A stretch of DNA of 64,000 nucleotides, taken from positions 62,001-126,000 of the forward strand of contig JAPLKG010000002.1 of the NCBI GenBank assembly GCA_026388185.1, read 5' to 3'. Below, in pieces: positions 5,142 to 57,485 of this stretch. Positions within the stretch are counted from its first letter, which is position 1; each line of letters begins with the position of its first letter. This DNA is from Candidatus Eisenbacteria bacterium (GTDB lineage: Bacteria; Eisenbacteria; RBG-16-71-46; JAFGJU01). The position numbers and the translations under genes are program-made. The notes beneath the pieces were generated by a model. The model made no database searches and was not told the DNA's origin. It saw only the letters and a program-made list of their open reading frames with translations.

Positions 5142-5233
5142 CACTGACGTTCCCCTCCATTTCCCGCGCCATGCCTCTGCAGGAAAAGCTGCGGGTAGAA
5201 ACCACGAGACAACGATTCCCTTCCAGCTACTGC

Positions 5234-6112
5234 CTAATCCCCTGCCTTCTCCTCGAATTTCTCTTCGCTTCGTTTGTTTCCACGTATCACTTCAACCTGT
5301 ATCGGCTTCTTGACGGGCTTCACCACCTGCTCGGTTCGGGGCGCCGGAGTGACCACGGGGCGAGGCGCCCTCACGATGCGCACCGGAGCCGCGCGTTGCA
5401 CCGGTTCTCTCGACTCAAGCATCCTCAGAACAGTGGTCCCCGACGTTGCGGCAGAGTCCGCATCAGCAGGGTTTCTCAGCACCAGCTGGATCTCTCCGCT
5501 GCTTGACGCCAGAGCAAGCTTTTCCGCCTCGCTGGGAGTCACGAGCAACGTCACAGACTGCGTTTTCATGGGCTTGCCGCCGTTGTCTTCGAGCCTCTCG
5601 TCCGCGGCAAGCACCAGCAGGTTTTGAAGCACAATTTTCGACACCGTCTCTTTTTCAGTCTCCGGCCGAATCGTAACAACCACGTCCACCTTTGTATCGG
5701 GCAATACAAACCCGCTGACGCCGCTGACCACGGTCACGGGAACGGTCATGGCTCGCATGCCAGTCGGCACACGCATTGGCAGTCCCCTGTCCGCTCCAAC
5801 GGGTGCGAGCTTGTTCTCCAGAATCGGCTCGCCGATCGTGATGGGCGTCCTCACAACTCGGCCCGCCAGCTCCTGGCTGGAACTCATGGCGCCTGTCGGG
5901 ACTATTTCCCTGGGCCAACTGGCCGTCTGAGTGTTGTCCTCGCCAAGAATCGTCCCGAACGGAAGCTCCTTCGAGGCGACAACCACCGGCTGAGTAGAGA
6001 CTTTTCTCTCTTTTACTATCTTGTCGTACTGGGCAAGATAACGATAGATCGCTACGCTTGCCAGCAGTCCAAAAACGACAGCGAGAATCACGACGACCCT
6101 GATTCTGGTCAC
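5234..6112 (-). CDS. cpaB: CpaB/RcpC periplasmic assembly protein of the Tad pilus (SAF domain)
   Basis: RcpC/CpaB is a periplasmic, inner-membrane-anchored protein that helps stabilise or gate the secretin. An N-terminal anchor (VVVILAVVFGLLASVAIYR) is followed by a SAF domain containing ELPFGTILGEDN. The RcpC core holds GMRAMTVPVTVVSGVSGFV, a family hallmark, and DVVVTI. The C-terminus is a Pro/Arg/Val-rich basic tail. The GTG start has a good GGAGG eight bases upstream. It lies between the TadE-like gene and cpaC in the same operon. Confidence 0.94.
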   Translation of the reverse strand: MTRIRVVVILAVVFGLLASVAIYRYLAQYDKIVKERKVSTQPVVVASKELPFGTILGEDNTQTASWPREIVPTGAMSSSQELAGRVVRTPITIGEPILENKLAPVGADRGLPMRVPTGMRAMTVPVTVVSGVSGFVLPDTKVDVVVTIRPETEKETVSKIVLQNLLVLAADERLEDNGGKPMKTQSVTLLVTPSEAEKLALASSSGEIQLVLRNPADADSAATSGTTVLRMLESREPVQRAAPVRIVRAPRPVVTPAPRTEQVVKPVKKPIQVEVIRGNKRSEEKFEEKAGD

Positions 6113-6134
6113 TTGAAAAACCTCCGTCTCAAGT

Positions 6135-6488
6135 TCAGATTTCCCTGCGCATAGTGCAGGCCGCTCTCAGAGGCAATCCGCTCAATTTAGGAAACAGATT
6201 TCCAAAAGAGGTACGAGAACCTATTGCAACGTCTACAGTCACAAGTGTGCCCTTGGAAGGAAAACCCTCGAAGGGAACCTTCACTTGAATGTCTTTCACT
6301 AGAACGCGCGAGGCAGCGAGGACGCCGAGGAGCACCCACGCCCCGGAAAACCAGGGCGGGGTCACAACGATCGCAAAGAGCGTTGACGCGACAAGTGCGC
6401 ATCCTACTACTGCCGCGCCTTTTTGGGATCGAAGCTTTGGTAAGAGAATTTTCACCCGGAACCGCCTTCTAAACCTAAGATCCGTCAC
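6135..6488 (-). CDS. Small TadE-like pseudopilin candidate
   Basis: A 117-residue protein with a class III prepilin-like leader: a basic N-terminus, then QKGAAVVGCALVASTLF, then a second hydrophobic stretch (WVLLGVLAASRVLV). This resembles the G|AxxxE processing site of Flp and TadE. However, the residue five after the presumed cleavage is Gly, where Flp in this same operon has Glu. The C-terminal part is a short beta-rich tail. It sits between flp and cpaB, a usual place for minor pseudopilins. The GTG start follows TGAGGGAT. Identification as TadE-like is inference from leader and location; sequence similarity is weak. Confidence 0.55.
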   Translation of the reverse strand: MTDLRFRRRFRVKILLPKLRSQKGAAVVGCALVASTLFAIVVTPPWFSGAWVLLGVLAASRVLVKDIQVKVPFEGFPSKGTLVTVDVAIGSRTSFGNLFPKLSGLPLRAACTMRREI

Positions 6489-6496
6489 CAGACAAA

Positions 6497-6546
6497 TCCC
6501 TCAGGCCGGGGGCTACCTCACCGGGTAGCTCACCCGGCTCGAGGGA
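6497..6546 (-). promoter_or_regulatory. Nested hairpin between flp and the rest of the tad operon
   Basis: On the transcribed strand, TCCCTC pairs with GAGGGA at the two ends. Inside, a perfect 6-bp hairpin CCGGGT/ACCCGG competes with a GCCGGG/CCCGGC pairing. There is no U-run, so it is not a classic terminator. In Tad operons pilin is needed in large excess over machinery. A strong hairpin just after the pilin gene could protect the flp transcript 3' end or act as a partial attenuator. The function is inferred; the pairing is seen. Confidence 0.5.
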
Positions 6547-6557
6547 CTTTCCTCTCA

Positions 6558-6577
6558 GTCGTGATAAGATTCACGAC
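6558..6577 (-). promoter_or_regulatory. Stem-loop immediately after the flp stop codon
   Basis: A perfect 7-bp inverted repeat, GTCGTGA and TCACGAC, with a 6-base loop. It starts three bases after the flp stop codon. No T-tract follows. Together with the larger hairpin downstream it may set pilin versus machinery transcript levels by blocking 3' exonucleases or by partial termination. Confidence 0.5.
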
Positions 6578-6579
6578 AT

Positions 6580-6756
6580 TTAGCTGCCGGGGACCTCACC
6601 CAGCTTGCCGGCTATCAACGTGAACACACGAATCAGCTCGTCGCGCAGCAGTATGATCGCGCTTATGACCGCGATTGCAACCAACGCGATAAGAAGCGCA
6701 TACTCCGTAACCGCAGCACCTTTCTCGTTCTTGAAAAGGTTCTTTAAGAACTTCAT
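6580..6756 (-). CDS. flp: Flp-family major pilin
   Basis: The major subunit of the Tad pilus, secreted after cleavage by a class III prepilin peptidase (not seen in the window). The 58-residue product has a short basic leader ending in NEKG, the processing site G|AAVTEYALL with Glu at +5, and a long hydrophobic assembly helix (IALVAIAVISAIILL). The C-terminus is short and charged. I chose the internal ATG because AGGGAGGAT precedes it at proper spacing and Flp leaders are short; an upstream in-frame start adds eleven atypical residues. It is the first gene of the tad operon, behind a sigma-54 promoter. Confidence 0.96.
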   Translation of the reverse strand: MKFLKNLFKNEKGAAVTEYALLIALVAIAVISAIILLRDELIRVFTLIAGKLGEVPGS

Positions 6757-6927
6757 TCCCTTATCCTCCCTTCTTTCTAGTCGGAGCAATGTCCAAGAAA
6801 CTTAACCAGTAAAGTGAAACAGGCCGAATGAATCACCTCCCCACAACGTGCCGCAATCTCGATTTGCAGGTCGCGGATGAACGTCTTTGTCGACGTGCAG
6901 ACTATCTAGGCATCCGGATCAAGTCAA

Positions 6928-6944
6928 GGGAATTCCCAATTGGG
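6928..6944. promoter_or_regulatory. Two overlapping perfect palindromes in the flp leader
   Basis: GGGAATTCCC and CCCAATTGGG are each perfect 10-bp palindromes and share three bases, making a 17-bp block. They lie about 30-45 bp downstream of the start point predicted from the sigma-54 site and about 170 bp upstream of flp. They could be an operator for a dimeric regulator, or two mutually exclusive RNA hairpins. No regulator gene is adjacent. The rest of the 417-base gap between flp and the upstream gene shows no further ORF that I believe. Confidence 0.4.
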
Positions 6945-6985
6945 GTTCAATCGCACGACAGACCGGGCCTCCCACGCTCCACAAA

Positions 6986-7001
6986 TGCAAGCCCTGTGCC
7001 A
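6986..7001 (-). promoter_or_regulatory. Sigma-54 (RpoN) -24/-12 promoter of the flp-tad operon
   Basis: The minus strand reads TGGCACAGGGCTTGCA. This matches the RpoN consensus TGGCAC-N5-TTGCW at every defined position, with the GG and GC pairs at the required distance. It faces flp, which begins about 230 bp downstream, giving a predicted leader of about 220 nt. Sigma-54 promoters need an enhancer-binding ATPase; neither rpoN nor such an activator is in the window. The palindromic GCAATTGC and nearby repeats at about 7029-7042 are possible upstream activator contacts, but that is speculative. Confidence 0.75.
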
Positions 7002-7173
7002 CTACGTTCTCGCAACTGATATCTCTGCAATTGCTGCGCAGAAAGTAAGTTGTGGCACTTATCGGGGGGATGGCGGCGCATCTCGGCAAAGATTCTTCTC
7101 TTCCGCTGCGGCTTTTTCGCACAAAAAGGGGGATTTTGCACGGCAGTAGGACCGGGCGGTCACGGAGGGGAAA

Positions 7174-8013
7174 TCAACTGGGAAGCAGACCCAGGTCCTC
7201 AAGAACGCCCCTGACCGGAGCGAACTGGAATGCACGGAGCAGGACCTCAAGGATGGGGCGCGTCCGGCCGAGGCGCAAATAGTGGTTGGGCCGTTCAGTT
7301 ATTGCACACATTCGAGGTTGGCAGGGATCCACTTCCCAGGGGTGAACGCTCACCATGACGGGCAGATTGCGGCCATTTTCGCAAGTTACAAAGCGTTTCG
7401 TAATCCAGCACGGCATCAGCCTCAGGTAGGCCCCGGAAGCAAAGGGGATATTCCAACTCGCGAATCTGGCCGTCGACATGGGAAACTCTACGATCTCCCC
7501 CCTCCCCACCTTCCTAAGGTGCGGTCGTCGTTCTGCCGAGGAAATCCCATACACTCTGCGCCGGATCGGATAGATGCTCGAGTCATATAGGTGACCGGTC
7601 TCGGCGAGCACCTCGAGTGCCCAGATGGACCTCTCTGTGATGGAGTAACTCGGTGCTCTAAAACCCACTACCCGTGAACCCGAAATGTCCTCCAACAGGG
7701 ATTTCGTCCTCATCACTTCTTCCCTGAATTCAGACCGGCTCAGTCGATAGACGAGCCTGTGACTCCAGCCGTGCGAAGCGATTTCGTGACCCGCTGCTAC
7801 GACGTCTCTCACCAGGCCGGGGTCCTTCGCGGCATTCCAACCCAGGAAGAAGAACGTGGCGCTCGCGTTGTACCTTCCGAAAAGCTCGACGAGCTCCCTC
7901 GTGTTCCTTCCAAACCTGGTCTCGTACGAGTCCCACGACGAGAAGGCGACTTTGTGCTCGAAGGAGCGGACCTGGAAATAGTCCTCCACGTCGACGGAGA
8001 GAGCGTTGATCAT
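7174..8013 (-). CDS. XrtA/PEP-CTERM-type polysaccharide deacetylase
   Basis: A NodB-homology deacetylase that removes acetyl groups from an exopolysaccharide. The opening SVDVEDYFQV is the hallmark of the XrtA-associated branch, and ASHGWSH supplies the metal-binding His pair. RAPSYSI and the C-terminal HPWEVDP (active-site His region) are also present. I prefer the ATG giving MINALSVDVEDYF because family members start there; a GTG eleven codons upstream is possible. It ends the exopolysaccharide cassette, ~30 bp after the epimerase gene. No exosortase or PEP-CTERM protein is in the window. The product looks cytoplasmic (no signal peptide), as is typical of this branch. Confidence 0.9.
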   Translation of the reverse strand: MINALSVDVEDYFQVRSFEHKVAFSSWDSYETRFGRNTRELVELFGRYNASATFFFLGWNAAKDPGLVRDVVAAGHEIASHGWSHRLVYRLSRSEFREEVMRTKSLLEDISGSRVVGFRAPSYSITERSIWALEVLAETGHLYDSSIYPIRRRVYGISSAERRPHLRKVGRGEIVEFPMSTARFASWNIPFASGAYLRLMPCWITKRFVTCENGRNLPVMVSVHPWEVDPCQPRMCAITERPNHYLRLGRTRPILEVLLRAFQFAPVRGVLEDLGLLPS

Positions 8014-8074
8014 GAATTTCACCGTAGGGGAAAGTGTCTCAAACACTGAACCGGGATGAGATGAGTGTTGTGAT

Positions 8075-9031
8075 CTAGCTTCTGCAGTCCTTGAGCCAGC
8101 CGAACGTCTTCCGCAGCCCTTCCTCGAAACTAACCGCGGCCTTGAAAGAAAGTTCGCGTTCGGCTCTCTCGGTGGCGGCTTCGGAGTGCCTGACTTCTGC
8201 CGCTCGCGGCTCCGCGTATCTGGCCTTCACGGCCAGACCGCTTATCCGTCCGATGGTCTCTACCAACTCGTTCAAGGTCTTGCGGTTTCCCCTGGCGATG
8301 TTGTAAGTGCGTCCGCTGATTCCTTCCTTGCGGCAGGCAAGCAGGTTAGCCTCTACCACGTCATCCACAAACGTGAAGTCCCTGCTTTGTTCTCCGTCGC
8401 CGAAAACCACGGGCGTGCCTCCCGACAGGACCAGTGACATGAAGATGGGGATAACTGCGGCATACTCAGAGTTCGGATCCTGCCTCGGACCGAAAACATT
8501 GAAGTAACGGAGCGAAACCGTCTCCAGGCCGTACACCGAGGAGAAAACCCGGCAGTATTCCTCCGCCGTGAACTTGCTGAGAGCGTACGGAGAGCACGGG
8601 TTGGGTCTCATCTCCTCGCGATTCGGGAGGCCGGCGCCGTTGCCGTATGCCGAGGACGAACTGGCGTATACCAACCTCTTGACCCCCGACTCACGTGCGA
8701 CCTTAAGAAGGAGCAGCGTGCCACCGACGTTCACGCTGTTGGTGGGAACGGGATCCACGACCGAGCGCTGAACCGAGCACAGGGCCGCCTCATGAAATAC
8801 GTATTTGACTCCCTGCAACGCCTTTCTCACGGTCGCTTCGTCACGGATGTCGCCTCTCACGACCTCGAGCCTGCCCTTGCCTTGGGAAGCGCCTATCACG
8901 GCCTCGATATTCTCTTCTTTGCCCGTCGACAAATCGTCGATTACCGTGACGTCAAGGCCTTCTTTGAGAAGTCGCTCAACGATGTGCGAGCCAATAAAGC
9001 CTGCACCGCCTGTAACCAAATACCTACACAT
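8075..9031 (-). CDS. NAD-dependent nucleotide-sugar epimerase (SDR family)
   Basis: An extended-SDR enzyme, probably a UDP-N-acetylhexosamine or UDP-glucose 4-epimerase acting in exopolysaccharide precursor supply. The Rossmann motif GGAGFIGSH is at the N-terminus. The catalytic Ser region is YASSSSAYGN and the YxxxK motif is YALSK. The phrase RYFNVFGPRQDPNSEYAAVI is typical of WbpP-type epimerases. The ATG giving MCRYLVTGG matches the family; a TTG four codons earlier is an alternative. It lies between the nucleotide-sugar dehydrogenase and the deacetylase. Confidence 0.92.
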   Translation of the reverse strand: MCRYLVTGGAGFIGSHIVERLLKEGLDVTVIDDLSTGKEENIEAVIGASQGKGRLEVVRGDIRDEATVRKALQGVKYVFHEAALCSVQRSVVDPVPTNSVNVGGTLLLLKVARESGVKRLVYASSSSAYGNGAGLPNREEMRPNPCSPYALSKFTAEEYCRVFSSVYGLETVSLRYFNVFGPRQDPNSEYAAVIPIFMSLVLSGGTPVVFGDGEQSRDFTFVDDVVEANLLACRKEGISGRTYNIARGNRKTLNELVETIGRISGLAVKARYAEPRAAEVRHSEAATERAERELSFKAAVSFEEGLRKTFGWLKDCRS

Positions 9032-9055
9032 GGTCCGAAACAAAACCTCGCTCTT

Positions 9056-10456
9056 CTAGAGTCTCCATATCCCTTTTGATTTGATTCCCTTCAGGACGTT
9101 CCGAGAGTCAAAGATGAGATTGGCCTTGGAGACGATCATCTTGTAGTCGAAGGCGCTGTGCGCAGTGGTTATGACCACACAATCAGCCTTTTCAAGCAGC
9201 TCAGCGGTCAAAGGCTTTGCCTTCATGTGAAAACGGTCCGTTCTTATCTCAGGAATGTGTGGGTCGCAATATGACACCTCTGCGCCGAGCCCAGTCAACA
9301 TCTGGTAGATGTCCAACGCGGGGGACTCCCGTGCGTCATCCACGTCGGCTTTGTACGCCACGCCGAGAAGCAATATGCTCGAGCCGTTAACGCTCTTGCG
9401 AACCGAGTTCAGTGCCTCTCCGACCTTATTGACCACGTGATACGGCATGCTTCCGTTCACTTGCCCTGCCAATTCTATAAATCTCGCCTCGAAACCGCTC
9501 AATTTCGCCTTCCAAGAAAGGTAGAACGGATCTATCGGGATGCAGTGACCTCCCAGACCCGGACCCGGGTAAAACGGCATGAAGCCGAACGGCTTGCTGG
9601 CCGCCGCCTCGATGACCTCCCACACGTCAATCTTCATCTTGTCGCACATGAGCGCGAGTTCGTTTACCAGCCCGATGTTCACGCTGCGGAAGGTGTTTTC
9701 CAGAAGCTTCACCATTTCTGCAACCCGCGTAGAAGACACGGGCACCACCGAAGGCGTGCAGCATCTGTACAGGGCCACGGCGACCTGGCTGCACTGCGGC
9801 GTCACGCCGCCGACAACCTTGGGGATGTTCCTAGTCATGAATTTCTTGTTTCCCGGGTCAACCCTCTCGGGAGAGAAGCCCAGGAAAAAGTCCTTTCCCA
9901 CTTTCAGCCCGGTTTCCTCGAGCATGGGTAGTATCAATTCGTTAGTGGTGCCGGGATAGGTCGTGCTCTCGAGGACAACGAGCTCTCCGCGATGAAGAAA
10001 CTTTGCGATCTGTCCGGTGGCGTTCACGATGCTGGAAACGTCCGGATCGCGGGTCTTTCTAAGTGGAGTGGGAACGCATATGCTTACGCAATCCATCTCG
10101 AGCAGCCTCGAGAACTCGCGGGTCGCCTCGAGCCGACCCGCTCGAACCTCCCGCCTAAGCTCGTCATTTGACACGTCCCGAATGTAGGAATCTCCGCTGT
10201 TCACACGGTCTATCTTTGCCTTCTCGGTATCGATCCCAGTGACGCGGAACCCGGATCGCGCGAATTCGACAGCGAGAGGAAGTCCAACGTATCCCAGACC
10301 AATCACAGCTATCCGCGCCTTGCGAGTCTCTATTCGTCCCTTGAGGCTCCGCAACACTGCGCCCGTTCGCTCCGAAGTCCCGCTTCCGCGTCTCGTCTTG
10401 CCCGAACGCACGACTTCATCCTTAGGTCTTGGATTTCTTCTTTGTCCCTTTTTCAT
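9056..10456 (-). CDS. UDP-N-acetylhexosamine dehydrogenase (WecC/WbpA family)
   Basis: Oxidises a UDP-N-acetylhexosamine to its uronic acid with two NAD+. It has the N-terminal Rossmann motif GLGYVGLPLA, the middle domain, and the catalytic Cys in GLGGHCIPIDPFYLSWK. The UDP-binding C-terminal domain begins around GVAYKADVDDARESPALDI. The start is uncertain. Homology begins near LKGRIETRKARIAVIGLG, leaving a basic N-terminal extension of about 40 residues, and every plausible ATG lies inside the 3' end of the upstream BY-kinase gene. The pairing with the epimerase suggests production of an N-acetylhexosaminuronate for the polysaccharide. Confidence 0.92.
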   Translation of the reverse strand: MKKGQRRNPRPKDEVVRSGKTRRGSGTSERTGAVLRSLKGRIETRKARIAVIGLGYVGLPLAVEFARSGFRVTGIDTEKAKIDRVNSGDSYIRDVSNDELRREVRAGRLEATREFSRLLEMDCVSICVPTPLRKTRDPDVSSIVNATGQIAKFLHRGELVVLESTTYPGTTNELILPMLEETGLKVGKDFFLGFSPERVDPGNKKFMTRNIPKVVGGVTPQCSQVAVALYRCCTPSVVPVSSTRVAEMVKLLENTFRSVNIGLVNELALMCDKMKIDVWEVIEAAASKPFGFMPFYPGPGLGGHCIPIDPFYLSWKAKLSGFEARFIELAGQVNGSMPYHVVNKVGEALNSVRKSVNGSSILLLGVAYKADVDDARESPALDIYQMLTGLGAEVSYCDPHIPEIRTDRFHMKAKPLTAELLEKADCVVITTAHSAFDYKMIVSKANLIFDSRNVLKGIKSKGIWRL

Positions 10457-11204
10457 CTCCGTACCCATAGTAGTGGTAGTCGTAGTAGTAAGGAAGTACC
10501 TCGTCTGCATTGTTTATTACGGCACCCAATACGTTTGCGCCCCCTTCGCTCAGCAAAGACCCTGCTCTGGCCACAACCTCGACGGGAGTCCGTCCCGCCA
10601 TGACGACAAGCAGAACTCCGTCGCAATGCCCCGATATCAGAAAGGCATCGGACACAGGCAAGACGGGAGCAGTGTCTAGAATCACGAGATCAAAGTTTGC
10701 CCGCAGCTCTCCTATAATGTCCTTGAACACGGAGGACTCGAACAACGCGGTGGGCACGCCTATTCCTCTGCCGCTTGTCACCAACTTCAGATTCGAAAGC
10801 TCGGTGTTTTTCACGACAGAAGAGAGCGGCAGAAGACTCGTCAACGCATCAGCCAAACCCACCCTTTGACTCACGCCGAACAGGTTGTGCAAACGCGGCT
10901 TCCTCAGGTCACAATCCACGACGACGACCTTCTTTTTCGAGTGCGTCGCCGCCACCTGGGCAAGACAGGCAGACGTCGTCGTCTTCCCCTCCCCTCTCCT
11001 CGCACTCGTGATCAGTATCACCGAAAGCTTGCGCTGCGCATCCATCCTGGACAACCGAGTGGAGAGCCTGTGGAACTCGGTCCCCACGGGTGAGTCCCCG
11101 CCAACATCGCTGAGCGGGAGCCGGCCTACGGTTCTGGCAATTGGCGCGAGGCGCTCTTGCTCACCTGTGGCGTACAATTCCCTTGTCGTCTCCTGTTTGC
11201 TCAT
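10422..11204 (-). CDS. Bacterial tyrosine kinase (BY-kinase, CpsD/Wze type) with tyrosine tail
   Basis: A cytoplasmic P-loop tyrosine autokinase that works with a Wzz/CpsC-type membrane activator to control polysaccharide polymerisation. It shows Walker A RRGEGKTTTS (~69-78), Walker A' VVVVDCDLRKPR (~93-104) and Walker B LVILDTAP (~173-180). The C-terminus carries the autophosphorylation cluster: seven tyrosines between residues 239 and 248. Here kinase and membrane activator are separate proteins, as in Firmicute CpsC/D. It starts 6 bp after the GumC-like gene and its end overlaps the dehydrogenase gene. Confidence 0.95.
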   Translation of the reverse strand: MSKQETTRELYATGEQERLAPIARTVGRLPLSDVGGDSPVGTEFHRLSTRLSRMDAQRKLSVILITSARRGEGKTTTSACLAQVAATHSKKKVVVVDCDLRKPRLHNLFGVSQRVGLADALTSLLPLSSVVKNTELSNLKLVTSGRGIGVPTALFESSVFKDIIGELRANFDLVILDTAPVLPVSDAFLISGHCDGVLLVVMAGRTPVEVVARAGSLLSEGGANVLGAVINNADEVLPYYYDYHYYGYGDEKGTKKKSKT

Positions 11205-11210
11205 CTCCCG

Positions 11211-12890
11211 TCAAGGTCCTTCCGTTTGCTCCAGAGAAATCCCTACCTCAAGCCCCTGCTGGCCTCTGCCGAGCAGGTTCGCCAGAGGTTCGTGGGCCAG
11301 CTTAAAGCCCACGGTGAGTATCAGCGCGGCAAGGACCACATAGTATGGCCACCTTCTTGCCTTCGTCGTTTCCCAGAAAGTCGCGCCCGGCACCTTCGGG
11401 ATCGTGCCAAGCACGGGTATGCCCAGAGCACTCGTGACGTCACCGACTGATTTCACAGAATCGTCCATGTACTCCGACAGAACGACGTAACAAATCCCCA
11501 TGAAGGGACCAAGGAGAAAAGCCAGTATCAGAATCTTGTCCCTTCCCGGCCCTGCCTGGGTGAAGGGCCTGGTGGCCGGCTCAATGACTTCGATTCTGAC
11601 GCCCAGCCTCGTGGTCTGGGCCGCCTCCGATATCTGCGACGAAGTGAGCTGGCGCCTCAGTGATTGAAGCACCGTGTTGTTGGCTTCGACTTCCTGCCCC
11701 AGCCTCGCTAGCTCCATTTCGTCCTGGGGTCTTCTTCCTGCCGCCCGACTGTACTGCCCCACGAAACCCGAGACGAGCCCCCTTCTTTTCTCCAGAGAAC
11801 GTACAACGTAGTCGTCATAGACTTGTTCGGACACCAAAGAGAGAAGACCGTCGGGCGAGCCGCGGAGAGTATTGCCGACCGTTTCTTCTATCGCCGCAAG
11901 CAGCCTCTCCCTGGCCAGTCCCACCCTCTCCATGATCGAACTCCTCGAGACTCCTTGAACGAGCAACGGGACATCGGCCTGCTCTTCCTTCGCGAGCCGG
12001 GCGTATGCCGAGTTGATGCCGCTGCTTCTTATGAGCGTGACCGGATTCACCGCGTTCGGATAGGTTGCGTCCATCGCCTCCTTGGACGTCTTGCGGTTTG
12101 CCTCAAGCTCGGCGATCTCCGTCTCCGTCTGCTCCAACACAGACCGCGCTGAGGCGACGTTATTCCCGCCCGACACGCCGTCGCGAGCGGCCCTGGTGGC
12201 CATCTGGGCCCGGAACTGCCTCAGCTTCTCCTCGCTCTGCCTTAGCTTTTCCTCGTAGACCGGAAGCTGATCCTCGCTGAACGTGCCCGCGGCCCTTATG
12301 TCCGCCAACTGCCCCTTCGTGACGTACTCGACAAACAACCCCGTGACACCGTCCGTCAAGCGGAAGGCTCTCTCCGGGTCAGGGTCCGAAATCGTGATTC
12401 TATAAAGATTCGGTCCCATCTCCGCAATTTTGATGCTCCTCCTCAGAGCGTCCACCATCAGTCTCTTCTCGTACTCCTCGATACTCACTCCGTGCGCCTT
12501 CGCCGACTCGAGATTCTCCGGCGCGTTCCCCGGCAACCTCAGCTTCAGCTCTTGAACCACCTCGCCGAGGAAGATCCCGCTCTTCAGCCTTGCCTCTATC
12601 TGCACCAGTCGACCAGCATCTTCGTAGCTTCCCGTCGGTTTCTGAACGATCATGTCACCCATTTCGCGGGCAAACGGAAGCTTTTCCTCATAGATAACGA
12701 CGCTCGAGGATTCATACACGGGGGCAACAAGGGTGAGACCGGTAATCGCGGCGCAGGGCACAAGAACGACGGGAAGCAGGATGTACCGCAACTTTCTCCT
12801 CATCGCTCTGAAGTAACGAAGAACTTCGGCTCCCGCTGAGATTGTTTCGTGCCGATTCAAAGTGACTCCTCTATCCTTTCCCGATGACAT
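11211..12890 (-). CDS. GumC/Wzz-type polysaccharide co-polymerase
   Basis: An inner-membrane chain-length determinant and export protein. It has an N-terminal transmembrane helix (YILLPVVLVPCAAITGLTLV), a Wzz domain, a long coiled-coil periplasmic region and a second transmembrane helix (PYYVVLAALILTVGFKL) near the C-terminus. A further hydrophobic stretch, ILILAFLLGPFMGICYVV, lies before VGDVTSALGIPVLGTIPKV, which is typical of the GumC class. I start at MSSGKDRG; an upstream in-frame start would add nineteen residues without similarity. The BY-kinase it should activate follows directly. Confidence 0.9.
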   Translation of the reverse strand: MSSGKDRGVTLNRHETISAGAEVLRYFRAMRRKLRYILLPVVLVPCAAITGLTLVAPVYESSSVVIYEEKLPFAREMGDMIVQKPTGSYEDAGRLVQIEARLKSGIFLGEVVQELKLRLPGNAPENLESAKAHGVSIEEYEKRLMVDALRRSIKIAEMGPNLYRITISDPDPERAFRLTDGVTGLFVEYVTKGQLADIRAAGTFSEDQLPVYEEKLRQSEEKLRQFRAQMATRAARDGVSGGNNVASARSVLEQTETEIAELEANRKTSKEAMDATYPNAVNPVTLIRSSGINSAYARLAKEEQADVPLLVQGVSRSSIMERVGLARERLLAAIEETVGNTLRGSPDGLLSLVSEQVYDDYVVRSLEKRRGLVSGFVGQYSRAAGRRPQDEMELARLGQEVEANNTVLQSLRRQLTSSQISEAAQTTRLGVRIEVIEPATRPFTQAGPGRDKILILAFLLGPFMGICYVVLSEYMDDSVKSVGDVTSALGIPVLGTIPKVPGATFWETTKARRWPYYVVLAALILTVGFKLAHEPLANLLGRGQQGLEVGISLEQTEGP

Positions 12891-13010
12891 TGCCTGTTGC
12901 TGGCTTTCCCTTGTTTGAAGAGTGAACCTGAGCGAACATCCCCCCAATTGCCGTCAAAACCAAAGCGCCATCTTACCACAAGCGCTATCGCTTCCCAAAT
13001 ATCAATATGA

Positions 13011-14057
13011 TCACACGGGTTCCCTGCTGTTCCCTCGTCGGGCCGACATGACCCGGTTTTTTCCACCGTGCTTTGCATCGTACAGGGCAATGTCAGCCGA
13101 CTCTATCATTTCACCAACGCTCTGACCGTCTTCAGGATAAGTGGACACGCCAACGCTGCAGGTGATTTCGCCGCTGGGCACTTCCGGAAATGGCACGCTG
13201 GCCACCGCCATCCTCACGCGTTCCGCAAGCACGAGGGCTCCCTCCTTAGGCGTGTGAGGAAGGATGAGCAGGAATTCATCTCCACCGTACTTCGCTACGA
13301 AGTCGATGCTCCTTGCAGTCGTCTTGATTACGTACGCCAACTGCTTCAACACCGTACTGCCCCTCAGGTGACCGAAGCGTTCATTGTAGGCCTTCAAGTT
13401 GTCCACGTCCAACATCAAAATCGAGAACGCCTCGCCGAATCGAGCAGCTCTATCCAGCTCTCTGCGAAGAGCAGTCTTAAGATACCTGAAATTGTAGACT
13501 TGAGTGAGTTCGTCTGTCACCGCGAGTTGCTCGACTCGCTTGTACAGATCCGCGTTCTCTATTGCTATGGCAGTCTGATTGGCAAGCACACACAGCACGC
13601 TCAGGTCCGACTCGCTGAACGATCCGCCCTTGAGCTTGTTGACCGCGACAAGAACGCCCAGCACCGCCTCGCGCGCCTTGAGTGGCGCACATATGCAACC
13701 GCGGGTTCCAAGGCCCGGCACCATGTCCGCATCCTCCCCCAACCCGGCTTGCTCCGCCACCTTCGGGATAATCACAGGCTTCCCCTCCATCATCACCCAA
13801 CGCACAACGCCCCTGTCCCCCGCGCCCTCGTGCTTTTCCATCGGCCCTTCACTACCGCTTTCCTGTCTCCTCTTCGCATACTTCGCCACTCCACTCCCTT
13901 CCAAGGCAACAAGAAATACGGCCTCAGCCTCCAGCACCTCCAGCGTGCATGAGAGCACCTTCGAGAAAGTCTTCTCCATCTCCTCGCCAGCCGTGATAAG
14001 GCTCGAAATCTCAACGAGGGTGCCAAGAAATCTTTCGTCGCACACTAGGGAAGGCAT
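13011..14057 (-). CDS. GAF-GGDEF diguanylate cyclase with intact I-site
   Basis: Makes c-di-GMP from two GTP. A GAF domain occupies about residues 10-165, ending near LANQTAIAIENADLY. A short helical linker with TDELTQVYNFRYL leads into the GGDEF domain. The active site reads GGDEF (about 258-262) and the inhibitory I-site RSID lies exactly five residues upstream, so the enzyme should be active and product-inhibited. No membrane segment is seen. It lies about 120 bp upstream of the polysaccharide co-polymerase gene, suggesting local c-di-GMP control of exopolysaccharide. The ATG follows TTAGGGGC; a TTG two codons earlier is less likely. Confidence 0.93.
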   Translation of the reverse strand: MPSLVCDERFLGTLVEISSLITAGEEMEKTFSKVLSCTLEVLEAEAVFLVALEGSGVAKYAKRRQESGSEGPMEKHEGAGDRGVVRWVMMEGKPVIIPKVAEQAGLGEDADMVPGLGTRGCICAPLKAREAVLGVLVAVNKLKGGSFSESDLSVLCVLANQTAIAIENADLYKRVEQLAVTDELTQVYNFRYLKTALRRELDRAARFGEAFSILMLDVDNLKAYNERFGHLRGSTVLKQLAYVIKTTARSIDFVAKYGGDEFLLILPHTPKEGALVLAERVRMAVASVPFPEVPSGEITCSVGVSTYPEDGQSVGEMIESADIALYDAKHGGKNRVMSARRGNSREPV

Positions 14058-14133
14058 TGCCAACGCCCCTAACTCAATGAAAAACCGTGCAACCTCAATT
14101 ATCCCAACGCCAATTGAGCAACTTCTGTGCCAG

Positions 14134-27622: not shown

Positions 27623-27659
27623 CTATAACCACCACCTCACGGGCAGCTCCGGAAAAGGA

Positions 27660-27840
27660 AAATCCCCACCGGACTGCCGTGTGACAGAGACTCTTGAACC
27701 TGGGAAATCCAGGTGGGTGCCAGACTCAAGGTCGTCGCGACCCCGCGAGTAGCGGGTCCCGCTCTTACCTCGAGAACAGGCTCCCCTTGAACAACTGTTG
27801 GCTCAAAAACGCCTACATCATCACGCGCACGGTAGGGATT
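27660..27840 (-). ncRNA. ssrS: 6S RNA (SsrS) candidate
   Basis: The gap between zapA and rny holds a ~181-nt structured segment. Its ends close as a 10-bp helix, ATCCCTACCG with CGGTGGGGAT (one G-U), continued by TGC/GCA and CGTG/CACG around a bulged G. The 5' side contains TTTTTGAGCC. The 3' side has ACCTTGAGTCTGG pairing with CCAGGTTCAAG, much like the E. coli CCTTGAA...TTCAAGG element, followed by CACGGCAG. A T-rich stretch (ATTTTCCTTTTCC) follows the 3' end. 6S RNA mimics an open promoter and binds sigma-70 holoenzyme; ssrS after zapA is a classic location. A TATAAA lies at the 5' edge, so the exact start is unsettled. Confidence 0.78.
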
Positions 27841-27947
27841 TATACTCAGTGCATGGAGCCTCATCACTCATGAAATGTGGCAGATCTCCTTCCTGAGTCA
27901 ATTCCTCCTTCCGTCTAGCACTGCCATCCAAGTGGCGGAAGCTGGAT

Positions 27948-50932: not shown

Positions 50933-53209
50933 CTACGATAGCGAGACGCTGATCAACTGATGTGCCTTCTTGAGGTCCGATACGTCTTTGGGCCAGTAGA
51001 GTTGCAGGCCCTTCAGACTGAGTTCGGGAGCAGGCGAGACGTACCTCACTGCCCCGATGCGCGCGAGAAGAACTTCGATTCTCTCGAGGATGACGTTTCC
51101 GTCCCTCGGAGTCTGAGGGGAAACCACGACAAAGGTGGCCTCGCCTGTTCTACCGATCGTGTCCACCTCTCGAACGCTCTTTCGCAAACCCCCACAGAAT
51201 TCTTCGAGAAACGCGGAGCGCCACTCGTCTCCCAGTCTCTGGAAGGCCGCGGTCAATCCTTCCACCTCGGCGACGGTGATACAGAAGCCGATTCCATATC
51301 TCTCGTACCTCTTGGCTTCATCGTCAATCTTCTTCAACACTGCCTGGGCGCCAAGAAGCCCCGTCTCCGAGTCTCCTTCGGTGAATTGCTCCGCCTGCAT
51401 GGAGATCAGCACTCTCTGGAGGCCGTGCGCCGCGTATCCACAGAACGACTTGAAGAGATTGCCTTCTCCCTCGCCGAAGGCTTCCTTCTTTCCCTCTTTC
51501 ATTCTGAGAAGAATAGAGACGCCGAGGAACTTGCCTCCGGCCCTGAGAGGTCCCACCAAGAAGGAGCTGATGCCCAACCTTTCGACTTCCAGGCAAAGCG
51601 TTTCGTCGGCATCTTCGGAAGAAATGAAGCTCATTTCTTTCAGGGACTCGGCCGCGAGAAGCTGTCTCGCTCTACCCAGTCCGTCTTCCTCTTCCACGCC
51701 TTCCGTGCCGCGCAGACCGTCGACAAACCAGGTGCGTCCGTCTTCGCACGCGATAAGGCTGACGTCCGCCTTGAAAAGGCGCACTCCCTCCGACGCAACG
51801 ATACGCACGACTTCCTCTATCTTATGAGTGGTCATCAAGGAAGAAGCAACCTGGTTGAGTTCCGCCAGCACCGAGGCCTGTTCTCTGAGTCCGAGGAGCG
51901 AAATCTCCCGACCCAGTTCCTTCGCCATGTACCGCCCCACCCTCTCAAAGGCGCTCAGGAAAGCCTCGAGCTCGACTTCGCTCACCTTGATGGAGTCAAA
52001 AACAAGAAGCCCCTGCTTGTGCTGAGCTCCCAGAGGGACGCACAGAATCCCAAGGTCTTCGCCTCCCAGAATCGGCGAGACGATGCTCCCCGGAAGAAGC
52101 ACTCGCGACTTGCCGGACGATGCGGCCCGGCCGAGGAATCCTTTGCCATCTACTACGACGCGCGGAAGCAAGGGCTCCGCGTCTTTGGTCGAGGAGGCAA
52201 AAAGGATCGATCTTCCACTTCGTTCCTTGTCGGGAAGGTAGATGTAACAGTCGGCTTCGAGTTCCCGCCCCAGTGAGTCGGCGAGAAGGCGTACTTTCTC
52301 ATCAAGCGGGACTTCCTTCATCAATTCTTCTTCTGCCGCTTCCCTCAGAGTGAGCTCCAGTGCTTTGTTGGCAATCGTGCTGTATTCGACGGCCTTGTGA
52401 ATGACTTCGGTCACTCTCTCGGCCAATTTTTCCAGAAGATGAAGATCTCTGCCCTGGAAGACGGAAGGATCTTTGGAACTGCCCACGTTGAGAACGCCGA
52501 TCGCGCGACCCTTGGCCATCAAAGGCACGCACATGGCTGCCTTGACGTCACTTCTTTCCTTCCCGCCTCGCTGCTGGTCGATCTCCGCCTCTCCCGAGAT
52601 CAAGAGAGGGCGCCCCTCCAGAGCCACCTTCCCCGCGATCCCTTCACCAAGTCTCTGCCTGGTCGTGCGAACCGTGTCCCCACTCAGCCCCTGAGCCATG
52701 GCGATACGCAGTTCTCGCCCCTTCTCGTCCAGAAGCATGATGGAGCCGGAGTCGGCCCCCGTACATCTGATCGCCAGATCAAGAATCCACCTGAGGAGCT
52801 TCTGCCTGTCAAGAGCGAGACTCAATGTGTCGGCCAGCGTGCCGAGGGCCAGGGATTCCTCTGCCCCCAGCTCGAGCGCGCCGGGCTCGGGCGTCTTATC
52901 TTCGGGGACGCGCCCCGTGGCCTCATCGGGCCTCATCGTCCCGACCCCGCCTCCCAGTATTTGGTTGACCATGCGCTTCGCCTCTTCGCTTCCGCACAAG
53001 ACCACGTCCACGTCCAGAGACGTCAGCGAGGCAATATTGGTCGTCGCCGGAAGTCGCATGATCTCCGCAATCCTCAGCGCGGCGGCGGAGGCGTCTTCGT
53101 CAGCTATGGATACCACTTCCCAGCGATCGTCCTTGACCATTGCCGGGATTAGATCGAGGTCGCTCTCTTTGAGACCGACGATTGCCAGATTTCTCTTTAT
53201 TGTGTCCAT
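50933..53209 (-). CDS. Multi-GAF protein with degenerate GGDEF and intact I-site (PelD-like c-di-GMP receptor)
   Basis: A 758-residue cytoplasmic signalling protein. Residues ~1-95 look like a Rossmann-type domain (NLAIVGLKESDLDLIPAMV). Three GAF-like domains follow: ~120-290 with VKAAMCVPLMAKGRAIGVLN, ~305-440, and ~455-595. The last ~150 residues are GGDEF-like, but the active site reads GEATF (689-693), so cyclase activity should be lost. REVD at 680-683 keeps the RxxD I-site at the exact five-residue spacing. This matches the logic of PelD, which binds c-di-GMP through such a site. A sigma-54-like element lies upstream. Its output partner is not evident. Confidence 0.85.
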   Translation of the reverse strand: MDTIKRNLAIVGLKESDLDLIPAMVKDDRWEVVSIADEDASAAALRIAEIMRLPATTNIASLTSLDVDVVLCGSEEAKRMVNQILGGGVGTMRPDEATGRVPEDKTPEPGALELGAEESLALGTLADTLSLALDRQKLLRWILDLAIRCTGADSGSIMLLDEKGRELRIAMAQGLSGDTVRTTRQRLGEGIAGKVALEGRPLLISGEAEIDQQRGGKERSDVKAAMCVPLMAKGRAIGVLNVGSSKDPSVFQGRDLHLLEKLAERVTEVIHKAVEYSTIANKALELTLREAAEEELMKEVPLDEKVRLLADSLGRELEADCYIYLPDKERSGRSILFASSTKDAEPLLPRVVVDGKGFLGRAASSGKSRVLLPGSIVSPILGGEDLGILCVPLGAQHKQGLLVFDSIKVSEVELEAFLSAFERVGRYMAKELGREISLLGLREQASVLAELNQVASSLMTTHKIEEVVRIVASEGVRLFKADVSLIACEDGRTWFVDGLRGTEGVEEEDGLGRARQLLAAESLKEMSFISSEDADETLCLEVERLGISSFLVGPLRAGGKFLGVSILLRMKEGKKEAFGEGEGNLFKSFCGYAAHGLQRVLISMQAEQFTEGDSETGLLGAQAVLKKIDDEAKRYERYGIGFCITVAEVEGLTAAFQRLGDEWRSAFLEEFCGGLRKSVREVDTIGRTGEATFVVVSPQTPRDGNVILERIEVLLARIGAVRYVSPAPELSLKGLQLYWPKDVSDLKKAHQLISVSLS

Positions 53210-53430: not shown

Positions 53431-55593
53431 CTACATCAGTTTAAGCCTGCCTGTCCCGATGTTTTGGGCCCTGTCCCGGGCTCGGACAACGATCGTGTGC
53501 TCTCCAGGTGCAAGCGCCGGTCCGTGCGCGACCTCGCCGAGCACAAAGGAAAACTCTTCGCGCGGAGAGTCAAGTAGCCCGTCCGAGGACTGGACATTCC
53601 GCCACTCGCCTCCGTCCAGAGAATAGTCGAGCCCCACTATCGGACTCATGTTGTCTGAGACCCTGCCGCCTATTCTGACGCCGGCCTCTTCTCTCGCATA
53701 CTTGAGGCCGGAAACAGTCGGAGGGGTGTTGTCTATCTCGAAAGGCAGACTCACGCCCTCGGCAGTCAGCGCCTCCGAAGTCGTGTTGTCTGGTAAGTCA
53801 CTCGCCACTACCTTGAGCAGGTAGGTCCCGTCGGCAAAGGATCCGCTATTCCACGTGAAAATCGGCTCCTTGAAATCCTTTTCCAAAAGTCTCCAATTTG
53901 CCTCGTCGATTCCGCGACAGAAGATCGAGAAGATGAGCCTGTCACCATTGGCATCAGAAGCCTGCCAGACTGCGGTACGAAAAACCCTCGCCCAGGTCGC
54001 GTCCTCTGGGGCGCGTTCTTCCTCATCCGAGGTCAGAGAGTATTCCACCTTGATCCCGCCCGGAAGCGTCTGGGAAATCCTCTCCGGTATCTTGTCCATG
54101 CCGCCCCTCGAAAAAGCCACGCCCTGGGGTAACACCTGAACGGAGGTCACCGTAGGTGCGACATTCTTCTCGAGGTAGGATAGAGTCACCTTTCTGAACG
54201 AGGGCGAAGGTCTTCCGCTCGACGAACGCAGTGCGGCCTTCCATTGCAGAAATCTTCCCGGAAACGACTTCCCAACTTCTCCAGACGATGACAGCTCTTC
54301 ACCCCATTCACTCCAAGTCTTGTCCGGCTTCTCACAATTGCCCGATCTGACGGAAAACGCGAGAGAGGTCCCGGGCGGAACTTGCCCCTCCCAAGTGAGA
54401 CCCCCGCATCGTGAGACGCCGACGGCATCAAAAACATTGGACACAAGCGTGCCCTCTCTGCAAAAGGACGGTCCGGCAGAATAGACTCTGGCTCTGTTGC
54501 CCGTCGAGAAGACGAGGGCACGACCCACTCCAACAATGTCCAGAATCTGCGAATCGGCGACCTTCTCGAGAAGCTCCACCTTTCCGTTCACCAGGCCGTA
54601 AATGGTCCCCTCATCGCCGGTCCCCACGATCAGACTGTCCTTTCCGGCAAGATAAAGCGAATAGACGCTCGAACGCGAAGTCGTCCAGAGCTTGAGTGCA
54701 GTCCCGTCCTGCCATATCTTGTAGATGGCTGACATCAACTTCGTTTGCTCCTGGACCTCGGAGCCGGTGTCGTCCGACCCCGAATCTGTCTGCTGCGCGA
54801 CGCCTTTCCTGCTCTGAGACACCGCGACAGCGTACACCACTCCGTCTCCGTCCACCACAAGGTCTCGCACTTCCTTCTCGTCGCAATCGTAGAGAACCTG
54901 TCCCTTGCCCTGGTAGGAGACGGATATCACAAGGCCGCTTCCCTCCGTTCCCAGGATCAACTTTCCATCGACATACTTGGCACACATGACGTGCCTCTCG
55001 CCCGTCTCGTAGAAGAGCTCTCCTGAGCCGTCGGGCGTTATCCTGTAGACCCTGCCGTGATCGCCGGTCCCGGCGTACAGATTTCCTTTCTCATCGATGG
55101 CCAGACACCAGACGTAGCTTTCTCCGGTCTTGAAGAAGACGGAGCTCTCTCCGTTTGGGCTTATCTTGTAGACCAGACCTCCCGGCGAAGTACCTGCGTA
55201 CACGGCGCCGTTCTTGTCAACCGCAAGACTCAGGACTTCGAGCTCAGGGCTGTCCAGAACGAGAGACGTCTCGCCGCGTGCGTCAAATTTGTACACGTTG
55301 CCGCCGTCGCCGCTCCCTGCGTACAAGTTTCCCCTCGCATCCCTCGCGACGCACCAGAAGTAGCTTTCGTCGCCGCTAATGAGGCTGTCCAACTCGAGGG
55401 CGAGCGACACGACGTCGGATTGTCTGATGGACACGCATTCGGGAGTGCCGCTCAGAAATTCCGACGCCTTCTCGGTGGTCCAGAAGGACGTCTCTCTTGC
55501 CGCGATGGTGCCGGGCAGGCCCGCCACAACAGCGACCAGGATCAGAGATATTGACAGCGCTAGTTCCCAAGAACGAAGCTCTTTTGGCCTCAC
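53431..55593 (-). CDS. Secreted beta-propeller protein with C-terminal Ig-like domain
   Basis: A 720-residue secreted protein, role unknown. A signal peptide is followed by five or more propeller blades of about 40-45 residues with repeats such as GNLYAGSGDGGNVYK, GAVYAGTSPGGLVYK and GNLYAGTGDHGRVYR. This resembles NHL/two-component-regulator propellers. Beta-rich domains follow from ~400. An Ig-like fold with DNTPPTVSGLKY and SLDGGEWR lies near the end. GTG with GGAGGTAGAC starts it two bases after the S55 gene stop, so the two are coupled. No kinase or membrane domain is present. Confidence 0.88.
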   Translation of the reverse strand: MRPKELRSWELALSISLILVAVVAGLPGTIAARETSFWTTEKASEFLSGTPECVSIRQSDVVSLALELDSLISGDESYFWCVARDARGNLYAGSGDGGNVYKFDARGETSLVLDSPELEVLSLAVDKNGAVYAGTSPGGLVYKISPNGESSVFFKTGESYVWCLAIDEKGNLYAGTGDHGRVYRITPDGSGELFYETGERHVMCAKYVDGKLILGTEGSGLVISVSYQGKGQVLYDCDEKEVRDLVVDGDGVVYAVAVSQSRKGVAQQTDSGSDDTGSEVQEQTKLMSAIYKIWQDGTALKLWTTSRSSVYSLYLAGKDSLIVGTGDEGTIYGLVNGKVELLEKVADSQILDIVGVGRALVFSTGNRARVYSAGPSFCREGTLVSNVFDAVGVSRCGGLTWEGQVPPGTSLAFSVRSGNCEKPDKTWSEWGEELSSSGEVGKSFPGRFLQWKAALRSSSGRPSPSFRKVTLSYLEKNVAPTVTSVQVLPQGVAFSRGGMDKIPERISQTLPGGIKVEYSLTSDEEERAPEDATWARVFRTAVWQASDANGDRLIFSIFCRGIDEANWRLLEKDFKEPIFTWNSGSFADGTYLLKVVASDLPDNTTSEALTAEGVSLPFEIDNTPPTVSGLKYAREEAGVRIGGRVSDNMSPIVGLDYSLDGGEWRNVQSSDGLLDSPREEFSFVLGEVAHGPALAPGEHTIVVRARDRAQNIGTGRLKLM

Positions 55594-55595
55594 GT

Positions 55596-57377
55596 CTACC
55601 TCCCGGCCTTTTGATGCTTAATCTTCAAGCTCACCGATCGGCGCCCCTCCAGCGCGTAGTCGGTGTCCGACGCGACTGCGCCGAGTATTCCCAGCGGCGT
55701 CTCGGTGAGTGCACCTGAACGAGTCGAGCTATCCAGCACGCTGGAGAAAGAGGAAGGCGGCGATGGGAACGGCTTGCCTTCAATCCCTGCCTCCTCACTC
55801 CGCGCAGAAAGCACGCACTCGAGTCGATCCCCTCTCCCGGAACTCTCGATCTGTGACATCAACTGCTCCAGATTCGCCGGAGGAAGTCTCCTGTTCGTCG
55901 ACTGCTCTTCCCACACCCTCATTTCTGGAGCGGAACACACCAGGATTCGAGCGCGCTCCGCCTCGCACGTCAAGGGAACGACCAGACTGAACCGCCTCAA
56001 GAACACTTCCCCCCTGAACGGTTTTAGCTTGACGGTGACGCGTATCGAATCGCCGGGCATTACTTCCTCGGGGCGAACGGACACCTCTTCAATCGAAGCC
56101 ACCCTCTGCTCTCGCCGGACGAGCAGCGTGCAATCTATGCGACGGACGTCGGCCTCTTCGAACTGGTTGTTAAGGAGAGTTTCTACCGGCGCAGAAACCA
56201 TTTTCGAGATTGCCGAGGCAGGATCGGTAGTGAAAAGGACGTTCTCGTATTCCACCTCGTGTGTCGCCCCGTGCTTGTCGACGAACTCAATCTCGCCGGC
56301 TGCCTTTATGGTCATGTCTCCGACGGCGCCGCACAACGTGAGCGCCGCGCTGGTCGCGCTCCATCCCACAAGCATTCCGGTGAGGAGCTTGTTTTTCACT
56401 ACGTCGAAGTGAAACGTCCTTTCGCCCCCCGTCCCGGTCTTCACAACGACGCCCACCGGTACTAGAGAAGGAACGGATCCAATCTCGCCTAAGACCCCCG
56501 AGAGACTCTCACCGGTTATCTTTCCCACCATCCGCAACGGAGACGCAAGTTTCACCGAGCCCGCAAGGCTCGGGAGCACCGTGTGCACGTACGCGGTACT
56601 CATGGGGATCCCGGCGAGATTTCCGAGCATGAGCCCGTGGCCGAAACCAAGTACTCTTGCCCCTTCCGTGTACGTCACGGTCCCTATGGCCGCCACGACA
56701 CCGTCTCCCCTCACGAACTGCGCCGCCATCGCGGCCCCCGGGACGAGCGTATCGCCTTCGACCGATCCTCCGGCGCCGCCGGTTTGTGCCACCACCATGT
56801 TGAGGCCGCTCGCCTCCTGTTCTATCACGCGCAGAACCGCTGGATGAAAGCCCGAAACCAGGAGCGGCGTCTCAATCGCCTTCATCGTCCCCGCAGGGAT
56901 TTCCCAGTCGCCCGAACTCAAGTCATTCCGGCTCCTCGGCTGGGCCGAGCCTGAGCCGATTCCCGCGGTCTCAAGCCCCAGCATCTCCTTTATCGGCGTG
57001 ACCCCGACGATAGGCTCTTTTGAGAAAGCCCAGGTGTACGCCATGGCCCCGATCAATTTGCCTTCGACGTAAACAGGCGTTCCACTCATGCCGGCTGCGA
57101 TTCCTGCGTTATCCACTTGTGGCCCCGACGCTCTCGCAAGTATGAGGTCTCCCCCAGGTCTCCAATTGCGGAGCACCCCGAGTATTTCAACGTCAAATTC
57201 CTCAATTCTCGAGCCCAAGAACACGCTCTTTGCCTTCCCCTTCATCCCGGGACGTATTTCATCCAGATTCATGAAGGACGCATCGACAGCCGCGGTCGGC
57301 CCCGGCGCACACACCACGAAGCAGCCAAAGAGAAAGACTTGAACGACCAGTCTTGTGACCCAGAGCCCTTTTCTCAT
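55596..57377 (-). CDS. SpoIVB-like S55 family protein with permuted catalytic segments
   Basis: A 593-residue exported protein (signal peptide ending near TAAVDA). The S55 nucleophile segment GIAAGMSGTPVYVEGKLIGA is at residues ~92-111 (Ser98) preceded by EEFDVEILGV. The His segment IGTVTYTEGARVLGFGHG is at ~231-248 (His247) and is followed by RMVGKITGESLSGVLGEIG. In SpoIVB the His segment precedes the Ser segment, so the order here is reversed. The usual Asp position appears to be Ser. Beta-rich domains fill the C-terminal half. It could be a protease or an autocleaving scaffold. The propeller gene follows two bases later. Confidence 0.85.
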   Translation of the reverse strand: MRKGLWVTRLVVQVFLFGCFVVCAPGPTAAVDASFMNLDEIRPGMKGKAKSVFLGSRIEEFDVEILGVLRNWRPGGDLILARASGPQVDNAGIAAGMSGTPVYVEGKLIGAMAYTWAFSKEPIVGVTPIKEMLGLETAGIGSGSAQPRSRNDLSSGDWEIPAGTMKAIETPLLVSGFHPAVLRVIEQEASGLNMVVAQTGGAGGSVEGDTLVPGAAMAAQFVRGDGVVAAIGTVTYTEGARVLGFGHGLMLGNLAGIPMSTAYVHTVLPSLAGSVKLASPLRMVGKITGESLSGVLGEIGSVPSLVPVGVVVKTGTGGERTFHFDVVKNKLLTGMLVGWSATSAALTLCGAVGDMTIKAAGEIEFVDKHGATHEVEYENVLFTTDPASAISKMVSAPVETLLNNQFEEADVRRIDCTLLVRREQRVASIEEVSVRPEEVMPGDSIRVTVKLKPFRGEVFLRRFSLVVPLTCEAERARILVCSAPEMRVWEEQSTNRRLPPANLEQLMSQIESSGRGDRLECVLSARSEEAGIEGKPFPSPPSSFSSVLDSSTRSGALTETPLGILGAVASDTDYALEGRRSVSLKIKHQKAGR

Positions 57378-57485
57378 TCTCACCGTCCTGTCACAGTACG
57401 GCCTTCACCACGCACGCAGCGGTTGTGCTTCGCAGTTGAAAGCCCTCCGTCACCGTTTCTCATTCACGGGCGAGTTCGTCCCGAG

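Follow-up and report, generated by a model that had tools for sequence, protein, structure and literature searches.

We find that a gene of a Candidatus Eisenbacteria bacterium, lying in a 64,000-nucleotide stretch of its genome (the window, meaning the whole stretch that was analysed), probably encodes a soluble receptor for c-di-GMP, in which a diguanylate cyclase domain that has lost catalysis serves to bind the ligand. We prefer this reading because the catalytic residues of the domain are lost, the I-site triad is kept, and an intact cyclase is found in every genome that carries the gene. The gene and the features of its protein are as follows:

50933-53209 (-): focal gene, complete, encoding 758 residues (open reading frame list), with orthologues in G001, G002 and nine genomes of family f4
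52919-53209 (-): Rossmann-fold domain, residues 1-97, of the Gfo/Idh / aldehyde-dehydrogenase NAD-binding type, without the glycine-rich dinucleotide loop (AlphaFold2, Foldseek; boundary checked)
52400-52858 (-): GAF1, residues 118-270 (Pfam GAF_2, E 7e-30), 19% of columns invariant
51971-52306 (-): GAF2, residues 302-413 (extra stretches of GAF_3; GAF secondary-structure order in the model), 5% of columns invariant
51470-51820 (-): GAF3, residues 464-580 (extra stretches of GAF_3; model), 5% of columns invariant
50936-51394 (-): degenerate GGDEF domain, C-terminally shortened, residues 606-758 (Pfam profile positions 4-110 of 161; tree clade 100/100), 16% of columns invariant
51161-51172 (-): REVD, primary I-site motif, R680-D683, invariant in 12 of 12 orthologues with differing synonymous codons
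51131-51145 (-): GEATF in place of GGDEF, residues 689-693, a dead active site; positions 3 and 4 lost in 12 of 12 orthologues, position 2 in 8 of 12
51080-51082 (-): R710, counterpart of the second I-site arginine (PleD R390, SgmT R794, PelD-Bc R395), invariant in 12 of 12 orthologues

The protein is predicted to be soluble, since we find no hydrophobic stretch of transmembrane strength along its 758 residues (the highest 19-residue hydropathy is 1.42). The Pfam search gives up to three GAF stretches, and the full-length AlphaFold2 model, made from 11 orthologues, shows an alpha/beta domain at residues 1-97, three GAF-type domains and a GGDEF-type domain from residue 606, with long helices (253-296, 414-460 and 580-608) linking the GAF domains. 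With a mean pLDDT of 78 and a pTM of 0.40, this model is usable for the domain folds and not for their arrangement; the best match to it over the full length is the Idiomarina diguanylate cyclase linked to a bacteriophytochrome (PDB 6et7, 5llw). The Rossmann-like N-terminus proposed in a preliminary description of this DNA is supported by a confident model and a fold match: the first 100 residues modelled alone reach a mean pLDDT of 88 and a pTM of 0.79, and Foldseek matches them in the PDB to 1nvm_B and 1tlt_B (TM 0.67-0.73 on the query, prob 1.00). The glycine-rich dinucleotide-binding loop is absent from this domain, where VGLKESD or LDLPDDR stands and the first loop has no invariant glycine, so that the domain is unlikely to bind NAD in the usual manner. 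No effector domain was recognised in the protein.

The C-terminal domain belongs to the GGDEF superfamily by both profile and fold. The focal sequence matches the Pfam GGDEF family (PF00990) at residues 613-718 with 23.3 bits against a cut-off of 23.8 (E 5.9e-5) and exceeds the cut-off in a second search; all 11 other family members match it (best 5.5e-16), a profile of the family matches solved GGDEF structures in the PDB (DgcR 3e-16, PleD 8e-10), and the model of the focal domain has the GGDEF beta-alpha order. What the family lacks in its sequences is the residue set of an active diguanylate cyclase, namely GG(D/E)EF together with the metal Asp, the Lys and the Asn: these three and GGDEF positions 3 and 4 are intact in none of the 12 orthologues, and no common residue replaces them. 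The earlier suggestion that GEATF removes catalysis thus holds for the family as a whole, with catalytic positions replaced in every member.

The orthologue set (n = 12) covers all three genomes of the bacterium's own family (f1) and all nine genomes of a second family (f4), one sequence being a fragment; we found no further orthologues outside these two families among the 47 class genomes searched. REVD sits exactly five residues ahead of GEATF, as had been claimed (680-683 against 689-693). Conservation of RxxD in homologues had been named beforehand as the refuting test, and we find both R680 and D683 kept throughout the set. The idea of a dead GGDEF domain with a preserved I-site is further strengthened by R710, which the preliminary description had not mentioned and which follows R680 at a distance of 30 residues in each of the 12 proteins. 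The focal protein is only 28-33% identical to its f4 orthologues, and the branch between the two families, at 2.08 changes per column in the tree, is long enough that unconstrained residues would have changed. Because this branch is long and the codons of the invariant I-site residues differ synonymously between orthologues, R680, D683 and R710 are held by selection and not by recency, and we read the I-site triad of this family as retention under selection.

A motif of this kind in a single sequence means little, given that RxxD is present in about 44% of published GGDEF proteins (PMC3974145). Among intact GGDEF domains sampled from the class, R and D are both present in 39 of 39, so inheritance of RxxD is expected and it is the retention of the motif after the loss of catalysis that needs explaining. 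As a matched control we use a separate degenerate family, REC-GGDDF, from the same genomes and with an equally long branch, in which the Asp is kept in 12 of 12 sequences but the Arg in 1 of 12. The difference in Arg retention from the focal family, where it is 12 of 12, gives a Fisher p of about 1e-5, uncorrected for relatedness. This comparison suggests a structural role behind the retention of the I-site Asp, which leaves the Arg as the residue to judge by; the Asp alone is weak evidence. The REC-GGDDF proteins (loci L093, L141, L142, L150 and L152-L159 of the f1 and f4 genomes, with a receiver seen in L093) are themselves probably dead and not I-site receptors. A third set of GGDEF proteins, in f4 (L132-L134, L140, L147-L149 and L151), keeps RxxD as RGTD, RGSD or RTTD beside the motifs GYDEF, GADEF, AGDEF, EGDEF and SGEEF; these are further candidate c-di-GMP receptors or atypical cyclases.

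Published cases show that RxxD alone is an imperfect predictor of c-di-GMP binding. Of 11 GGDEF proteins with RxxD in an ORF screen of V. cholerae, just three, all of them GGDEF-only, were positive (false negatives are discussed there), and the GGDEF domain of TmoK (M. xanthus) neither makes nor binds c-di-GMP. One alternative is that the focal domain is a structural relic, serving as a dimerisation or scaffold module in which REVD supports the fold or a protein contact, c-di-GMP is not bound and the GAF domains alone do the sensing. The inner motif residues E681 and V682 are as invariant in the orthologues as R680 and D683. Such invariance is uncommon in I-sites; it hints at some other or additional constraint and leaves room for a role in protein contacts. 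GAF1 is the best conserved domain, and the Asp that persists without the Arg in the REC-GGDDF family indicates that the motif is partly structural. Against this, that same family shows the Arg to be dispensable for the fold, yet it is universal in the focal family, as is the distant second arginine. We consider the relic unlikely and favour a c-di-GMP receptor.

Such a receptor could find its ligand in these cells. The focal genome (G000) encodes three intact GGDEF proteins, each with RxxD, and two other degenerate ones without it, along with three HD-GYP proteins and one PilZ protein; one or more intact GGDEF domains occur in each of the 11 others that carry the focal gene. A histidine kinase of the same genome (L094, G000:C5:19245-19646) has a C-terminal degenerate GGDEF domain that reads DSGEM, with RREG where RxxD is expected. 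One cyclase lies within the window:

13011-14063 (-): GAF-GGDEF protein with an intact active site, keeping GGDEF and RSID (alignment to the focal protein)

This protein had been described (as 13011-14057) as a paralogue that aligns column by column with the focal one. The two do align, over the C-terminal half of the focal protein, and share the order of GAF then GGDEF with RxxD at the same spacing, but there is a one-residue gap after the motif and the C-terminus is longer than that of the focal protein. Identity between it and the focal domain is only 24%, and a recent duplication of the GAF-GGDEF gene is ruled out by the tree, in which the focal family forms its own clade on a long branch. 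The GAF-GGDEF gene adjoins genes of Flp-pilus type (secretin, RcpC/CpaB) and of surface polysaccharide (a sugar epimerase, a UDP-glucose dehydrogenase, an AAA_31 ATPase and a Wzz-like protein without a Pfam match) at 3996-14063 (-), which is likely a surface locus under c-di-GMP control, at a distance of 37 kb from the focal gene. No c-di-GMP riboswitch in the window reaches the gathering threshold, the only matches being tRNAs and a 6S RNA (27659-27841 (-); Rfam RF00013, 72.7 bits).

The presence of active cyclases raises the question of whether the focal protein is instead a dead partner subunit, forming a heterodimer with an active cyclase such as the one at 13011-14063, which its I-site triad would cross-link and inhibit; its role would then be to adjust c-di-GMP synthesis and not to act as a receptor downstream. 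Cross-linking between GGDEF domains through the I-site is established for PleD and WspR, the focal C-terminal half aligns to the GAF-GGDEF protein, and the latter has orthologues throughout the class, including most genomes that carry the focal gene. However, the two genes are unlinked, about 37 kb apart, the focal domain has low identity to the GAF-GGDEF protein and falls outside its clade, and in G002 the intact cyclase that accompanies the focal gene is a different one. We regard a partner subunit as rather improbable. More doubtful still is that the domain keeps some enzyme activity, original or altered, or that it senses a different nucleotide, for instance GTP at a remodelled A-site: some degenerate motifs are active (AGDEF of VCA0965) and some degenerate GGDEF domains bind GTP or hydrolyse ATP, but in this family substitutions occupy the catalytic and GTP-binding positions that we examined, with no common replacement, and the C-terminal segment of the GGDEF domain is absent from the Pfam match.

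Returning to the receptor reading, a degenerate A-site with an intact I-site is an established receptor signature, and the focal protein carries its sequence features (a degenerate A-site, RxxD and a second arginine) in the manner of PopA and SgmT. The closest functional parallel, by analogy, is SgmT of Myxococcus xanthus (GAF-histidine kinase-REC-dGGDEF; PMC3509222), which is likewise cytosolic with an N-terminal GAF and a C-terminal degenerate GGDEF domain. SgmT has a GGGVF A-site and an RHPD I-site followed 31 residues on by R794, and is sequestered upon c-di-GMP binding (PMC3509222); it differs in its kinase and receiver domains, neither of which occurs in the focal protein, whose GAF domains number three and whose N-terminus is a Rossmann domain. 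PopA of Caulobacter (REC-REC-dGGDEF), as cited in PMC3509222 and PMC10333796, also combines a degenerate A-site with an intact I-site and is sequestered upon c-di-GMP binding, with receiver domains where the focal protein has GAF and Rossmann domains. The Idiomarina bacteriophytochrome-diguanylate cyclase (PDB 6et7, 5llw) resembles the focal protein in its GAF-like sensory chain, long helices and C-terminal GGDEF domain; it is, however, active, senses light through PAS-GAF-PHY, has no Rossmann domain and reaches a TM of only 0.3-0.4 over the full length.

The label 'PelD-like', used in the preliminary description, survives only as an analogy. PelD (P. aeruginosa, B. cereus; PMC7112168) shares the order of GAF then degenerate GGDEF and the RxxD with a second arginine, a pattern that in the B. 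cereus protein binds c-di-GMP with a Kd of 103 nM (PMC7112168). The second arginine follows the first after 30 residues in the focal protein, 31 in SgmT (R763, R794) and 32 in PelD-Bc (R363, R395). PelD differs in having transmembrane helices ahead of a single GAF domain, a Pfam family of its own and a pel operon, none of which the focal protein has: the Pfam PelD GGDEF family gives no match at E <= 1 for the focal sequence or at 0.01 for the 11 other members, PelD structures are not among the best 60 PDB matches of the family profile, and no pel genes lie near the focal gene in f1 or f4. We therefore reject PelD membership on profile, topology and gene context. The architecture had been called unrecognised, which is fair for the whole chain, but its parts have precedents in the GAF and degenerate GGDEF domains of SgmT and in those PelD proteins that carry an N-terminal SDR (Rossmann) domain with GAF and degenerate GGDEF (PMC7112168).

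The focal gene lies beside two genes for exported proteins:

53431-55593 (-): exported beta-propeller protein, 720 residues, upstream neighbour of the focal gene (Pfam Reg_prop 1.5e-9), in 43 of 47 class genomes
55596-57383 (-): exported SpoIVB (S55)-like protein, 595 residues, next upstream (Pfam Peptidase_S55 7.8e-6), in 43 of 47 class genomes

The gene order in f1 and f4 is mutS upstream, then the S55-like gene, the propeller gene and the focal gene, followed by mutL and miaA, except that mutL lies elsewhere in G002 and two extra genes precede it in G000. Across the 47 class genomes the S55-like and propeller genes are generally adjacent and mostly without the focal gene, so that the pair is the older element and the focal gene a neighbour that came later or is restricted to certain lineages. 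The focal and propeller genes are separated by roughly 200-300 bases, a spacing at which co-transcription is possible; a promoter and terminator scan around the focal gene stayed at chance level. These conserved neighbours are exported, whereas the focal protein is cytosolic. In the S55-like protein a GMSG(T)P serine segment (around residue 110) stands ahead of a conserved GFGHG histidine (H249). The order in SpoIVB is the reverse, which suggests a rearranged or permuted SpoIVB relative.

In loci examined from other families, no focal homologue follows the propeller gene; an M16 peptidase, a hydrolase or other genes are found there. In the search for homologues beyond the class, a peptide-pattern scan of 84,980 genomes, sensitive to close relatives only, gave one GAF-only match, and 12 genomes outside the class gave GAF or GGDEF matches only. 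A search of the literature returned no papers on this neighbourhood of genes or on effectors that combine Rossmann, GAF and GGDEF domains.

How might such a receptor work? In the mechanism we propose, c-di-GMP produced by the cell's intact GGDEF proteins would bind as a dimer to R680, D683 and R710 at the I-site. With their long helices, the three GAF domains would form a rod-like parallel dimer, and GAF1 may bind a small molecule; the majority of the invariant columns lie in GAF1 and the degenerate GGDEF domain, the most constrained regions, and this suggests that two ligands act as inputs. Acting together, the GAF1 ligand and c-di-GMP would determine how far apart the C-terminal domains stand or how they oligomerise. 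Because no catalytic or DNA-binding domain is present, we favour ligand-controlled dimer or partner binding as the output, most likely a protein-protein contact or sequestration as in SgmT and PopA, with a speculative partner and possibly by way of the Rossmann domain. A bolder proposal, that this family founds a class of soluble dual sensors (GAF1 ligand and c-di-GMP) with Rossmann output which place the older, class-wide S55/propeller envelope module under c-di-GMP control in two families, strikes us as improbable.

If the receptor reading is right, the family is a further lineage where a diguanylate cyclase domain has lost catalysis while the site that binds its product is predicted to persist, and the separate degenerate family that lost the arginine serves as a clean internal control. 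It also offers a candidate receptor without a recognisable effector domain, adjoining a conserved gene pair for which we found no literature, and the partner of the focal protein would point to what c-di-GMP controls in this bacterial class.
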